Below are positions 33,226 through 39,574 of a stretch of DNA of 64,000 nucleotides, piece by piece. The position numbers and the translations under genes were made by a program. Numbering within the stretch: position 1 is the stretch's first letter; each line of letters starts with the position of its first letter. The notes under the pieces were generated by a model. It saw only the letters and a list, made by a program, of their open reading frames with translations. It was not told where the DNA came from and did not search any database. Source of the DNA: Herpetosiphon geysericola (lineage in GTDB: Bacteria; Chloroflexota; Chloroflexia; Chloroflexales; Herpetosiphonaceae); assembly GCF_001306135.1 (NCBI RefSeq), contig NZ_LGKP01000021.1, forward strand, positions 186,001-250,000, read 5' to 3'.

Positions 33226-34413
33226 CTACGTCCGATAATCGGCGTTGATCCGCACATATTCAGCGCTAAAATCGCAGGTCCACGCGTAGCCAGTGGCAGC
33301 GCCAGCCCCAAGCTTGAGCCGAATGGCCACATGCTTGCCGCTCATTTGGCTCGCTGCTTCGCGTTCGCTGTAGTCGGTGGGCGTGCCACCAGCAACTAAT
33401 TGCACCGATCCCAACCAAAGCTCAACTTGGCTAGGATCGAATGGCACGCCAGCTACGCCAGCAGCTGCTAAAATTCGGCCCCAATTGGGATCGCCGCCGT
33501 GAATCGCGGTTTTGACCAATGGTGAGCAGGCAATTTTGCGCGCAACGGTACGCGCTGCAGCAACACTCGGCGCATGATCAACCGTGACCGTGACCAATTT
33601 GGTTGCGCCTTCGCCATCGGCAGCAATTTGCTTGGCCAAATCGATGCAAACCGCTTCGAGCGCTTGGCGGAAACTAGCAATATTGCTGGCATTGATCGTC
33701 ACGCCACTTGCGCCCGAGGCCAGCAGCAACAACGTATCGTTGGTACTTGGGTCGCCATCGACCGTCACGCAATTGAACGATGCATCGCTAACTTCGCGCA
33801 ACAAGCTTTGGGCCAAATCAGCATCGATAGCCACATCGGTGGTGACAATCGACAGCATGGTTGCCATCATCGGATGGATCATGCCTGCGCCTTTGGCAAC
33901 GCCTGCCACCGTCACCACAACTCCATCGATCACCGCATTGGCGCTGGCGGTTTTGGAACGGGTGTCGGTGGTCATAATTGCTTCGGCAAGCGCTGGAGCA
34001 TGCTCAACACCCAGTTCTGGGGCGATTGCAGCAACGCCTTTGGCCACTTTTTCAACATTCAGTTGATGGCCAATAACGCCAGTGGAAAGCACTAAAACCT
34101 GATGTGGCTCGCAGCCAACCGCTACCGCCGCCAAACGAGCCATCTCGCGGGCAGCGGCAACGCCTTGCGCGCCAGTACAAGCGTTGGCACAACCAGCATT
34201 AGCAATCACGGCGCGAATTTCGCTAGCATGCGCGGCCAAAACCGCTTGATCATAGAGCACAGGCGCAGCTTTGACGAGGCTGGTAGTAAAAACCCCAGCC
34301 GCCGTACAAACTCCATCAGCAACAAGTAAACTTAAATCAGGATTACCACTGGCCTTCAAGCCACATCGCCCCGCAGAACTGCGGAAACCAGCAGCAAAAC
34401 GAAAGATACTCAT
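33226..34413 (-). CDS. argJ: Bifunctional ornithine acetyltransferase / N-acetylglutamate synthase
   Basis: 395 residues. The self-cleavage site is in KGAGMIHPMMATML, predicted between A184 and T185, which makes Thr185 the nucleophile of the beta chain. STGVIGHQL and NDTLLLLASG are further family motifs. The enzyme moves the acetyl group from N-acetylornithine to glutamate and closes the acetyl cycle; many members can also use acetyl-CoA. Only two bases separate the argG stop from its start, so argG and argJ are translationally coupled. Confidence 0.95.
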   Translation of the reverse strand: MSIFRFAAGFRSSAGRCGLKASGNPDLSLLVADGVCTAAGVFTTSLVKAAPVLYDQAVLAAHASEIRAVIANAGCANACTGAQGVAAAREMARLAAVAVGCEPHQVLVLSTGVIGHQLNVEKVAKGVAAIAPELGVEHAPALAEAIMTTDTRSKTASANAVIDGVVVTVAGVAKGAGMIHPMMATMLSIVTTDVAIDADLAQSLLREVSDASFNCVTVDGDPSTNDTLLLLASGASGVTINASNIASFRQALEAVCIDLAKQIAADGEGATKLVTVTVDHAPSVAAARTVARKIACSPLVKTAIHGGDPNWGRILAAAGVAGVPFDPSQVELWLGSVQLVAGGTPTDYSEREAASQMSGKHVAIRLKLGAGAATGYAWTCDFSAEYVRINADYRT

Positions 34414-34415
34414 GC

Positions 34416-35627
34416 TTATTCGGCTCCTGAGGTTAAGGCTTCGACTTTTTGGGGCAAGCCAAAGAGCTTGATAAAGCCTTCAGCATCTGCTTGGTTGTAG
34501 ACTGCATCTTCGCTGAAGGTTGCCAAATCGGGCACGTACAAGCTGCGTTCGGCCTTGCGTCCAACCAAATGCACGCCACCTTTGAAGACTTTCAAGCGGG
34601 TCACGCCAGTGACATTCTTTTGGGTTTCGGTGAAGAACGCCGACAAGGCATAGCGCAACGGCGACCACCATTGGCCGTTGTAAATCAACTCGGAGAAGCG
34701 AATTGCCAAGGTATCTTTGTAGTGCAAGGTTTCGCGGTCGAGCGCCAATTCTTCGAGGCCTTGATGAGCGCGATAGAGCAACGTGCCGCCTGGCGTTTCG
34801 TACACGCCGTGGCTCTTCATGCCAACCAAGCGATTTTCGACCAAATCGACGCGGCCAACACCATGGCGAGCGCCAATCTCGTTGAGGGCTTGCAGCAAGG
34901 CAACGGGGCCAAGTTGCTCGCCATTCACGCTAACGGGAATGCCGCGCTCGAAGCCAATTTCCACATATTCTGCTGCATCAGGCGCTTGTTCTGGGGTGAC
35001 GGTGCGTTGGAACATATTCAATTCTGGCTCCAGCCATGGATCTTCCAACGAGCCGCCTTCGTGGCTCAAGTGCCAAATATTGCCGTCGCGGCTGTAGATC
35101 GAGGCGCGGGTGCTGGTGACTGGCACATTATGTAATGCAGCATAATCCAGCGCATCTTCGCGTGAGCGAATATGCCATTCACGCCATGGGGCGATGATTT
35201 TCATGTGTGGAGCCAAGGCCATGTAAGTCAATTCAAAGCGCACTTGATCGTTGCCTTTGCCCGTGCAGCCGTGGGAAAGGGCATCAGCGCCAACTTTCAA
35301 AGCAGTTTGCACCTGACCACGCGCGATTAATGGGCGAGCAATGCTGGTACCAAGCAAGTAGGTGCGTTCGTAGGTTGCGCCCGATTGCAACATTGGGAAC
35401 AAGAAATCGCGCACAAATTCTTCGCGCAAATCTTCGACATAGCAGGCACTTGCGCCTGAAGCAATCGCCTTGGCTTCAACGCCGCTCAAATCATCATCTT
35501 GGCCAAGATTGGCGCAATAGCAGACGACTTCACAACCATAATGTTCCTTCAACCATGGCACGATCACGCTGGTATCCAAGCCACCAGAGTAGGCCAGCAC
35601 CACTTTATTTGCAGTCGCATTCGACAT
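34416..35627 (-). CDS. argG: Argininosuccinate synthase
   Basis: 403 residues. The N-type ATP pyrophosphatase loop is SGGLDTS (14-20), followed by ANLGQDDDL and [12 protein letters not shown]. It joins citrulline and aspartate with ATP cleavage to AMP. The ATG at 35627 is ten bases after GGAG and is preferred to a TTG two codons upstream. The 5' spacer to argA holds repeat phrases and an 8-bp hairpin (AATGCTTT/AAAGCATT, 35702-35724). Confidence 0.96.
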
Positions 35628-35755
35628 GACCAATGAACTCCTTATTGAAAATCAGAAGGCAAAAATCAGAAGTCAAAATTGAAAACTCATTAGATTATTC
35701 CAATGCTTTACGATTTAAAGCATTTTTGATTTTTGCCCTTTGAATTTTGACTTGA

Positions 35756-36259
35756 TTAATGTTCCCAAACGACGGCGGTTTCGTCACAGCAAGTGACGAG
35801 TGGACACTTGACACAATCGCGCCAAACCTTTTCGGGGAAACGTTCTTTGTCGGTGATTGTAAAACCCAAGCGGACAAAAAACGAGACAGCGCGGGTCAAG
35901 GCAAAAACTGTATGAATTTGGCGCAATTTGGCTTGGGCAACCAGTTCGAGCACAATTTTGGCACCAACGCCAGCAGCGCGATACTCGGTTGCCACGGCTA
36001 ATGAGCGAACCTCAACCAGATCAGGATTCATCAGCAACAATGAGCCAATGCCAATCACCCGTTGGCCATGGCAGGCAACTACCCAATTTGCTAAAGAAGC
36101 ATGAATTTCGTCAGCGGAACGGGGTAATAAATGCCCAGCCCGCACATTTTCGGCAACCAACTCAGCCATGCCAGCCACATCGTCTTCATGGGCGGGCCGA
36201 ACCACAATGTCCGCAGGATCGATTGGAGCCAAAACTGTACTGTGTTGAATGGCAACCAT
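35756..36259 (-). CDS. argA: Short-form N-acetylglutamate synthase (GNAT, ArgA-like)
   Basis: 167 residues, only the GNAT part of ArgA without the kinase-like domain. Acetyl-CoA region: VEVRSLAVATEYRAAGVGAK (83-102). The C-terminus FPEKVWRDCVKCPLVTCCDE (141-160) has the cysteine cluster C149, C152, C157, C158 seen in short ArgA proteins of actinobacteria and others. It would make N-acetylglutamate to prime the cycle run by ArgJ. The gene lies 5' of argG in the arg cluster. The cysteines may bind a metal; no such site has been shown from this sequence. Confidence 0.85.
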   Translation of the reverse strand: MVAIQHSTVLAPIDPADIVVRPAHEDDVAGMAELVAENVRAGHLLPRSADEIHASLANWVVACHGQRVIGIGSLLLMNPDLVEVRSLAVATEYRAAGVGAKIVLELVAQAKLRQIHTVFALTRAVSFFVRLGFTITDKERFPEKVWRDCVKCPLVTCCDETAVVWEH

Positions 36260-36955: not shown

Positions 36956-37477
36956 TTAGGCCCAATCAATTGCTGGCGGTACAGCCCACCCAGATTCAAA
37001 GCTGCTCACAAATGAATGAATTGCGCTTGGACGTTGGCCTTGCGCCAAGAATGTTGCCAACGATTTCAGCTCTTTAGGCCAAAATGGCATGCTGGCAATT
37101 TCAGCCAAACTGCGCCATTCGGGCATTGGTTTATCGGCGGCCTCGGCATGCAGTGTAGCCTGCGGATCTAACGGCGTAGCATACAGAAACACCTCTAACC
37201 CATAGTTTGGCTCGCGATCCTCAGGGTCGATGATGGCATAGGTTGGAATAACCCACTCGCGCAGAAAGGCAATTTTGCCAACTTGCACGCGAATGCCGCA
37301 TTCTTCCCAAACTTCGCGGGCAGCACACTCTGCCAACGATTCGCCGCGTTCTATGCCACCACCTGGCAAGCGCCAAACCAATTCTGGCTGATCTTCAGTC
37401 GCCAGAATTAAAATTTCCTGCTCACACAGCACAATCACTCGCGTCCGAATATTGTCGTAAACCGAATGACTGGGCAT
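36956..37477 (-). CDS. Nudix hydrolase
   Basis: 173 residues. The Nudix box runs from G40 to I62, with E46, R54, E55, E58, E59 and G61 in the expected places (GIERGES...REVWEECGI). It hydrolyses a nucleoside diphosphate linked to another group; the substrate is unknown. The start ATG overlaps the argB stop as TAATG, so it is co-translated with argB, although no arginine-pathway step needs a Nudix enzyme. Confidence 0.9.
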   Translation of the reverse strand: MPSHSVYDNIRTRVIVLCEQEILILATEDQPELVWRLPGGGIERGESLAECAAREVWEECGIRVQVGKIAFLREWVIPTYAIIDPEDREPNYGLEVFLYATPLDPQATLHAEAADKPMPEWRSLAEIASMPFWPKELKSLATFLAQGQRPSAIHSFVSSFESGWAVPPAIDWA

Positions 37478-38223
37478 TAGGCGGCCTCGATAATTGTGCC
37501 AGCCTCAAGCTGATCGATGTTGGTGATGCGCACAATTTTCACGCCAGCTTGCAAGCCGCTCAAGGCCGATTCGACCTTGGGAATCATGCCGCCGCTGATT
37601 GTGCCATTGGCGATTAATGCCTGAATTTCGTTGGTGTTGAGCCGTGGCGCAACCACGCCATCAACCAAAACTCCAGGCACATTCGAGATAAACACGGCTT
37701 CGTCGGCTCCAACGGCGGCGGCAATCGCGCCTGCAAATACATCAGCATTCACATTCAACGTGCCGCCAGCGCCATCGGCACAAATTGGGGCCAACACTGG
37801 CACAACATCAGCAGCCAAGGCCTCGTACAAAACCGTGGCCCGAATCCGTGCTGGCTTGCCAACTGCACCCAAATCTCCAGCAGCATGCTCCACACGGGTT
37901 GCATAGACCAAGTTGCGATCAACGCCCGACAAGCCTAGGGCTTCTACGCCAACTGCATTCAGTGCTGCCACCAAGCGGGTGCTAACACTGCCGCAAAGCA
38001 CCATCGTGGCTGCTTTGAGTGCGGTTTGGTCGGTTACCCGCAGCCCAGCCACAAATTGCGGCTCGCCCCCAAGCGCCACTTGCAATTGACCAATTTCTTT
38101 GCCACCACCATGAACCAAAATTGGCACATCGTGTCCATTAACCATGGTCTGGATGACCGCAACCAAGCGAGCCAACCACGTTGGGTCATCAATTTCGTTG
38201 CCGCCAAGCTTCAAGATTCGCAT
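37477..38223 (-). CDS. argB: Acetylglutamate kinase
   Basis: 248 residues, the short E. coli-like form rather than the arginine-inhibited long form, which usually has an extra N-terminal helix. It starts MRILKLGGNEID, with the phosphate-binding Lys and the GG loop, and has LVHGGGKEIG and LNVNADVFAGAIAAAVGADE. It phosphorylates N-acetylglutamate. The lack of the N-terminal helix suggests no feedback inhibition by arginine, which would leave control to transcription (see the attenuator upstream of argC). argC lies nine bases upstream. Confidence 0.95.
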   Translation of the reverse strand: MRILKLGGNEIDDPTWLARLVAVIQTMVNGHDVPILVHGGGKEIGQLQVALGGEPQFVAGLRVTDQTALKAATMVLCGSVSTRLVAALNAVGVEALGLSGVDRNLVYATRVEHAAGDLGAVGKPARIRATVLYEALAADVVPVLAPICADGAGGTLNVNADVFAGAIAAAVGADEAVFISNVPGVLVDGVVAPRLNTNEIQALIANGTISGGMIPKVESALSGLQAGVKIVRITNIDQLEAGTIIEAA

Positions 38224-38232
38224 TGCCCACTC

Positions 38233-39243
38233 CTAACGCAAGCCCGTGGTTTCAGGCAAGCCAAACATAATATTCATATTTTGAATTGCCTGCCCAGAAG
38301 CGCCTTTGAGCAAATTATCAATCGCCGAAGTGACGATCAGCATGCCAGGCTGGGCCAGCGTCAGGCCAACTGCACAATCGTTGGTATGCACCACGTGCGC
38401 CAAACTGGCCAATTGGCCTTGATCAAGCACGTTGACGAATGGCTCGTTAGCATAGCGCTCGCGATAGAGCGCATGAATCTGGGCCAAATCCAGCTCTGGC
38501 TGAATTGGCACATAGATTGTGCTTAAAATACCGCGTTGGGTCGGCAAGAGGTGTGGTGCAAAAATCGTGTTAACTGCTGCGTTTGCCAACTTGTTCAATT
38601 CTTGCTCAATTTCGCCAACATGGCGGTGGGTGTGGCCAATGTTGTAGGGGCTATAGTTTTCGTGAGCCTCAACGAAATGCAAATGTTGCTTGGGTGCACG
38701 GCCTGCGCCAGAAACGCCTGATGCAGCGTTGATGATGATAGTTTGGCCAGTTTGCCACCAACCTTGCTCCAGCAACGGGGCCAAGCCAAGCAGCACACTG
38801 GTGGGGTAACAACCAGGGTTGGCAATCGTTGGCACATCAACCAATGCAGCGCGATTCAGTTCAGGCAAGCCATAGGGTGCGTTCAAGAGTTCGGGGTGGG
38901 GGTGCGTGTGGTCGTACCAGCGGGTGTAAGCGGCGGGGCTGTCCAAGCGAAGGTCGGCGGAGAGGTCAATGGCTTTGACACCATTCTGGCGGGCCTCTGC
39001 CACCGTTTTGGCAGCGACACCGTGCGGCAACCCCGTGAAAATCACATCAACAGTCTGCCAATCAACCTGATTCGCAGCTAATAAGGTCAGATCAAGTGGG
39101 CCTGGCACAACCTCGGCCAAACGCTTGCCCGCCGCCGATTCCGAGACAGCCCAAACTAGGCTGGCCTTTGGGTGACGTTGTAGCCAGCGAGCTAGTTCGT
39201 ATCCGGCGTAACCCGTTACACCAAAAATCCCAACACGAATCAT
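38233..39243 (-). CDS. argC: N-acetyl-gamma-glutamyl-phosphate reductase
   Basis: 336 residues. The Rossmann fold GVTGYAGYELARWL (8-21) binds NADPH, and the catalytic cysteine is C145 in ANPGCYPTSV. It reduces acetylglutamyl phosphate to the semialdehyde. It is the first structural gene after the candidate attenuator. About 110 bases of AAAGTCAAAAATCAAAAGCG-type phrases lie between the attenuator terminator and the start at 39243, where GGGAGTTCGCAATG provides a ribosome site. Confidence 0.96.
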   Translation of the reverse strand: MIRVGIFGVTGYAGYELARWLQRHPKASLVWAVSESAAGKRLAEVVPGPLDLTLLAANQVDWQTVDVIFTGLPHGVAAKTVAEARQNGVKAIDLSADLRLDSPAAYTRWYDHTHPHPELLNAPYGLPELNRAALVDVPTIANPGCYPTSVLLGLAPLLEQGWWQTGQTIIINAASGVSGAGRAPKQHLHFVEAHENYSPYNIGHTHRHVGEIEQELNKLANAAVNTIFAPHLLPTQRGILSTIYVPIQPELDLAQIHALYRERYANEPFVNVLDQGQLASLAHVVHTNDCAVGLTLAQPGMLIVTSAIDNLLKGASGQAIQNMNIMFGLPETTGLR

Positions 39244-39355: not shown

Positions 39356-39401
39356 TAAAAAAGTTTCCCCCCGAACCATCAACTGAGGTTCGGGGGGAAA
39401 C
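39356..39401 (-). terminator. Attenuator terminator upstream of argC (segments 3 and 4)
   Basis: On the minus strand GTTTCCCCCCGAACC (39401-39387), a nine-base loop, GGTTCGGGGGGAAAC (39377-39363), then CTTTTTT. The 15-bp stem is perfect. Segment 3 (CCGAACCTC, 39393-39385) is also exactly complementary to a segment in the leader-peptide gene at 39461-39469. Confidence 0.85.
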
Positions 39402-39433
39402 GCTTGGGCGTTTATGATCTTGCTCGTTGCCTG

Positions 39434-39535
39434 TTATCCAGCACAAACGGCGCAAGCCCACCGAACCTCGTTGGTACGGGGACGACGCAGCCGCAATGCT
39501 GGCGAAAAAAGGTTGGTGAGCATTTGTTTCTTCAT
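39434..39535 (-). CDS. Candidate arginine leader peptide, 33 aa, of the argC attenuator
   Basis: Too short for standard gene calling. It starts ATG AAG AAA CAA at 39535 and ends TAA at 39434. Its middle reads ALRLRRPRTNEVRW; codons 15-20 are CGG CTG CGT CGT CCC CGT, four Arg codons in six. The codons just after them form RNA segment 2 (GAGGTTCGG). A ribosome stalled on the Arg codons for want of charged tRNA-Arg would leave segment 2 free to pair with segment 3 and block the terminator; a ribosome that reads on to the stop would cover segment 2 and let it form. No Shine-Dalgarno is present, but the predicted transcript starts only a few bases before the ATG, so it would be read as a leaderless mRNA. 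Confidence 0.75.
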   Translation of the reverse strand: MKKQMLTNLFSPALRLRRPRTNEVRWACAVCAG

Positions 39536-39545
39536 AATGTCGCGA

Positions 39546-39574
39546 ATAATAGAGCGATTTAGATATTTTGTCAA
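39546..39574 (-). promoter_or_regulatory. Near-consensus promoter of the arginine leader and argCB operon
   Basis: On the minus strand TTGACA (39574-39569), a 17-base spacer, then TATTAT (39551-39546). Only ten bases separate the -10 from the leader ATG, so transcription should begin about three bases before it. Confidence 0.85.

Follow-up and report, generated by a model that had tools for sequence, protein, structure and literature searches.

We identified a putative transcription attenuator at the head of the arginine biosynthesis operon of Herpetosiphon. It very probably senses charged tRNA-Arg by way of a ribosome on a leaderless, or nearly leaderless, leader ORF and would control argC-argB-(nudix)-GNAT-argG-argJ, a reading that draws on sequence and on modelled RNA folding. 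Sequence and comparison show the parts of the device and how well they are conserved, and also that the segments can pair in alternative ways and that the unit is tied to the arg operon. As far as candidate leaders can be recognized in genomes, the unit is also wider than an earlier note on this DNA had claimed, since it stands in front of the arg operon in most of the order as well as in further Chloroflexota lineages without ArgR.

The argC leader of Herpetosiphon

The elements of the leader and the genes behind it (Table 1) lie within the window, that is, the whole 64-kb stretch of DNA analysed.

Table 1. Leader elements and arg operon genes in the window
Feature	Position	Strand	Basis or detail
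Sigma70-type promoter, TTGACA-17-TATTAT	39546-39574	-	Sequence reading and promoter scan; -35 TTGACA 39574-39569, 17-nt spacer, -10 TATTAT 39551-39546
Leader ORF MKKQMLTNLFSPALRLRRPRTNEVRWACAVCAG	39434-39535	-	33 codons + TAA; ATG at 39535, 10 nt after the -10
Arg control codons 15-20, CGG CTG CGT CGT CCC CGT (RLRRPR)	39476-39493	-	Four Arg codons
Long 1:2 hairpin	39438-39502	-	Core: segment 1 (39479-39473) pairs with 39467-39461
Segment 2, GAGGTTCGG	39461-39469	-	Pairs with segment 3 (antiterminator)
Segment 3, CCGAACCTC	39385-39393	-	
3:4 intrinsic terminator	39357-39401	-	-31.9 kcal/mol; GC-rich 15-bp arms 39401-39387 and 39377-39363; six U, 39362-39357
argC, first gene of the operon	38233-39243	-	NCBIfam TIGR01850, over cut-off
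argB	37477-38223	-	TIGR00761, over cut-off
Nudix-like gene	36956-37477	-	Nudix matches, all below cut-off
GNAT acetyltransferase, argA-like	35756-36259	-	N-acetyltransferase model matches, below cut-off
argG	34416-35633	-	NF001770/TIGR00032, over cut-off
argJ	33226-34413	-	NF003802/TIGR00120, over cut-off

The promoter hexamers agree with the consensus at 11 of 12 positions. Identical hexamers, with 9-10 nt between the -10 and the ATG, are found in all eight leader-bearing argC loci of Herpetosiphonaceae. When the coordinates were recomputed, the promoter, the ATG, the 33-codon frame and its cluster of Arg codons proved exact to the base as the earlier note had read them. That note had also called the start leaderless. 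The -10-to-ATG spacing fits this but also allows a 5' UTR of a few nucleotides, so that the ORF is best described as near-leaderless, with a predicted 5' UTR of about 2-6 nt as judged solely from the spacing.

The 1:2, 2:3 and 3:4 pairings likewise lie at the positions given in the earlier note. The Arg codons sit within the 5' arm of the 1:2 hairpin, and the short stem that had been described there is present but makes up just the end of a far longer, imperfect hairpin over codons 12-33. An additional CAAC/GTTG helix beside the 2:3 pairing exists in the window but is lost in relatives, where GTTG becomes ATTG or TTTG. For the whole 206-nt leader the computed folding energy is -88.5 kcal/mol, compared with -59.0 for shuffles (z -6.7). 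The 2:3 duplex of the window has a z of -4.9, none of 400 shuffles being as good, and the duplex between ORF and terminator arm is far stronger than in shuffles across the Herpetosiphon leaders (z -4.5 to -6.3). A terminator scan of the window did not report the 3:4 hairpin, whose loop probably exceeds the limit of the scan.

A strict detector combining a leaderless-type promoter, an Arg-rich short ORF and a terminator gave a single match in the window, the argC leader, with a background of five matches in 20 mononucleotide shuffles of the window (1.28 Mb). In GC-rich DNA, chance alone makes runs of Arg-rich codons likelier. Genome-wide there are 10 instances of the leaderless-promoter pattern, and the argC leader alone precedes an Arg-clustered ORF with a terminator nearby. 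Further TTGACA...TANNAT...ATG leaderless-type starts were seen in the same genome (L265, L266 and L271); at L271 a 9-codon ORF, MFTADIPLV, overlaps a strong terminator-like hairpin and is possibly another attenuator.

Nine Herpetosiphonaceae genomes were compared. The leader is nearly unchanged in all six Herpetosiphon genomes, and two further genera (L007 and L008) retain it in front of the arg operon with different genes upstream. The segment 2/segment 3 pair of the window, AGGTTCGG/CCGAACCT, becomes TGGTTCGA/CCGAACCA in L007, with a compensatory change from A-U to U-A and the loss of one end pair, and TGGTTCAG/CTGAACCG in L008, with a compensatory change from G-C to A-U. Codons 12-21 (PALRLRRPRT) differ between L001 and L008 by six synonymous and no nonsynonymous changes, and the flanks on both sides vary freely.

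About 113 nt separate the leader terminator from the argC start, and in Herpetosiphon this stretch is a mosaic of inverted repeats that are unrelated. Each of the six genomes (L001-L006; 39244-39356 in the window) carries one of two unrelated elements, AAAAGTCAAAAGTC in L001 and L005 or GGATGAAGGATGA in L002, L003, L004 and L006. Their distribution does not track relatedness, both motifs are found again elsewhere in the window, and the elements look like small mobile palindromic repeats.

Arginine leaders in other lineages and the distribution of ArgR

Three more families of Chloroflexales carry Arg leaders that look unrelated but share the same anatomy, placed before argC or argG, whichever comes first. 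The unit thus goes with the start of the arg operon. In f4, a sister family, an Arg leader such as MNQIYNKPHNLRRRSRRPARTGSVGG precedes argC in 21 of 21 loci by inspection and in 20 of 21 by the automated picker. Its promoters, of the TTGACA-17-TATNAT or TACNNT type, lie at a distance of 7 or 10 nt from the ATG, and a terminator is present; over two sister families the -10-to-ATG distance is 7-10 nt. In family f3 and genome G001 the operon starts with argG, and the Arg leader (MNTQHAHMTMLRFRRRTQPDDPSG and others) is found before argG and not before argC. The alignment of upstream regions that the earlier note had proposed, to see whether Arg codons and segments covary, speaks for the attenuator in four families and beyond. 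The leaders also over-use CGT relative to the argC and argG genes (codon counts in f4, f3 and f1). In f4, CGT makes up 34 of 66 Arg codons in leaders compared with 30 of 212 in argC, where CGC is preferred (Fisher p 4.7e-9), and the preference of leaders is similar in f3 and in f1. In L012-L018, every one has a second argC-like gene, about 35% identical and possibly belonging to LysW-type lysine or arginine synthesis.

The remaining family, f2, which we take to be Chloroflexaceae-type, has no leader before argC, and an Arg leader stands before argG in many of its genomes. A consensus promoter was absent from the stretch scanned upstream of the ATG in 11 of 13 f2 leaders. In L123 and L125 the promoter lies further upstream and a Shine-Dalgarno-like site can be recognized by eye, so leaderlessness is not universal; the leader at L107 is not leaderless either. 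Automated 2:3 prediction gave no signal in f2, where the ORF starts are uncertain, and we therefore do not claim 2:3 pairing for this family. In some f2 genomes (L130, L131, L136, L137 and L142) a tRNA gene directly upstream of argG replaces the Arg leader.

Another 40 argG upstream regions, taken from the class and the phylum, yielded nine Arg leader candidates with terminators, several of them with TTGACA...TANNNT 8-10 nt before the ATG. Applied to a different collection of 80 argG loci (833 kb) drawn from many phyla, the strict detector gave two matches, both immediately upstream of Anaerolineae argG. Arg leaders are thus also seen ahead of argG in some lineages of Anaerolineae type. At two Neomarinimicrobiota loci, L195 (5828-5908) and L200, a short ORF rich in Arg (MQEDRRRYRIRRNKLHQEFRSREDCT and MVEFSRRRSRLSAGTGTLL) with a terminator behind it stands before argG, hinting at Arg attenuators outside Chloroflexota. 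A class-wide search with a leader-peptide profile returned only weak matches beyond the family (E 5.7e-5 to 0.01); those inspected, L034, L038 and L040, lie inside unrelated coding regions and were rejected as chance.

The arginine repressor ArgR (PF01316) was found at the curated cut-off in none of the nine Herpetosiphonaceae genomes and none of 150 genomes of the class Chloroflexia, while control genomes were positive. Across the phylum it exceeded the cut-off in 55 of 251 genomes, all from other classes. In addition, nine other leader-bearing genomes tested directly have no ArgR, five ArgR-positive genomes serving as positive controls do, and no leader was found in the argG upstream regions of four of these five, which were read. 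The distribution of the leader is complementary to that of ArgR in other classes.

Modelled switching and competing explanations

Folding with a masked ribosome was modelled for 28 leaders by masking the footprint, folding the nascent chain before segment 4 and scoring the pairing between terminator arm and leader. Mean antiterminator pairing reached 0.61 for a ribosome stalled at the second Arg codon and fell to 0.11 once it stood six codons beyond the Arg cluster; it was 0.24 at the stop codon and 0.30 without a ribosome. Four leaders (L044, L057, L147 and L154) had no clear modelled switch. Shuffled ORFs reached a stalled value of 0.35 (p 1.2e-5), and in a swap test on 26 representatives each ORF paired better with its own terminator arm than foreign ORFs did (permutation p 5e-5, with f3 and three distant leaders contributing nothing to the signal), although both p-values are generous because leaders within a family are related and not independent. 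Among the representatives, segment 2 repeatedly forms the 3' side of a hairpin that has a 4-5 nt loop.

From these elements we infer that the leader is translated from this ATG, that ribosomes stall within it and that the operon responds to arginine. The transcript would start a few nucleotides before the AUG, so that a ribosome could load once the 5' end emerges. When arginine is plentiful, the ribosome would pass codons 15-20 and the 1:2 hairpin would take segment 2; with segment 2 sequestered, the 3:4 terminator would form and transcription would end before argC. When arginine is scarce, the ribosome would stall at the CGG/CGT cluster; as this cluster is part of the 5' strand of the 1:2 hairpin, the stall would open segment 2 for segment 3, and RNA polymerase would read into the operon.

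The trp-type logic that the earlier note had proposed for arginine is supported by the comparison and by the pairing tests, but it departs from trpL in one respect. The Herpetosiphon stop codon lies eight codons beyond segment 2, and a ribosome parked there leaves segment 2 free, with a modelled equilibrium 2:3 probability of 1.0. With the ribosome at the stop, the terminator is favoured in the mean of the modelled leaders but not in L001, L004 and L008. Throughout f3 and in much of f4, segment 2 is closely followed by the stop codon and is masked by a finishing ribosome. Since a parked ribosome provides no mask in Herpetosiphon, termination there would have to rely on release or on kinetics, probably with the long 1:2 hairpin over codons 12-33 reforming after rapid release.

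The strictly synonymous change of codons 12-21 goes beyond what control codons need, and an RR-P motif recurs in leaders of distant families. Both would suit an arrest-peptide sensor, in which the nascent chain (PALRLRRPRT in the window, RRP-type motifs in other leaders) would bind arginine or come to a halt inside the tunnel, and arginine itself and not tRNA charging would decide where the ribosome stands. However, the RNA pairing of the 1:2 arm accounts for part of the codon conservation, the peptides differ widely between families outside the Arg cluster, and a stall at this cluster would switch the operon on, which is the wrong sign for arginine-induced arrest. We therefore consider such a sensor improbable. 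A dual sensor is conceivable but still unlikely; in it, tRNA-Arg charging would be joined by a conserved RRP-type nascent peptide (PALRLRRPRT in Herpetosiphonaceae) that itself delays the ribosome, either inside the tunnel or at the Arg-Pro step, and so tunes the stall. On this reading the arrangement would represent the original arginine control of Chloroflexota, other classes of the phylum having ArgR instead.

The terminator lies between a citrate synthase-like gene and argC, and might be a constitutive terminator or decoy that stops stray upstream transcription, with an incidental ORF and a separate promoter for argC. This is very improbable, because a consensus promoter precedes the terminator, the ORF and the 2:3 pairing are conserved and change together, and the unit tracks the arg operon across families despite different upstream genes. 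Control by another RNA, either a T-box that reads tRNA-Arg or a riboswitch that binds arginine, is scarcely credible even though the Herpetosiphon genome has about 8 T-boxes. All of these lie elsewhere, Rfam at gathering thresholds (RF00230 included) gave no match at the argC leader, and the conserved features are an ORF and three pairings, not an aptamer. As T-boxes are used elsewhere in Herpetosiphon, the arg operon appears to use a different device. Ribosome-mediated attenuation is the reading that we prefer.

Known attenuators and the place of the arginine leader

In the enterobacterial trp, his and leu attenuators, 1:2, 2:3 and 3:4 pairings are combined with control codons in or beside segment 1, and the arginine leader shares both the pairings and the placement of the codons. 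Enterobacterial leader ORFs differ in having a Shine-Dalgarno site, and a ribosome at the trpL stop codon sits on segment 2, whereas one at the Herpetosiphon stop codon does not. Arginine operons are textbook targets of ArgR, which controls them in Escherichia coli. Arginine- or ornithine-linked, ligand-dependent arrest of the nascent chain is known from the fungal arginine attenuator peptide (AAP) and from E. coli speFL; the former acts on translation in eukaryotes, and the latter precedes ornithine decarboxylase. Polycysteine leaderless short ORFs of mycobacteria are reportedly treated by Canestrari et al. 2020, and Lopatovskaya et al. 2010 (cited in PMC4833913) is said to be a comparative survey of attenuation that might mention Chloroflexi.

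Among leaderless systems, the trp attenuator trpL/rnTrpL of Sinorhizobium meliloti has a transcript that starts at the AUG (PMC7298713). It shares with the arginine leader the control codons for the end product in a leader ORF, the alternative hairpins and an operon without a repressor, but it concerns Trp and not Arg, has a 14-aa leader and belongs to alphaproteobacteria. Mycobacterial polycysteine leaderless short ORFs have been proposed as cysteine attenuators (PMC4633059); they are leaderless and, like the arginine ORF with its predicted near-leaderless start, enriched in the amino acid of the pathway and located at the head of an operon, but they concern cysteine and Actinobacteria. The earlier note had known of no described arginine case in Chloroflexota, and our search of the open-access literature likewise turned up no account of leader-peptide attenuation of arginine biosynthesis in bacteria. 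The class of mechanism is long known, and leaderless attenuators are known for trpL; the arginine case would be an addition.

If the proposed mechanism is true, arginine would join the amino acids under ribosome-mediated attenuation, in a branch of the phylum without ArgR. It would also mean that one regulatory logic has been kept while the peptide, the hairpin sequence and the order of the operon were replaced. The predictions can be taken directly to cultured strains, among them Herpetosiphon aurantiacus and Roseiflexus, and the set of leaders is natural material for the study of leaderless initiation coupled to transcription.
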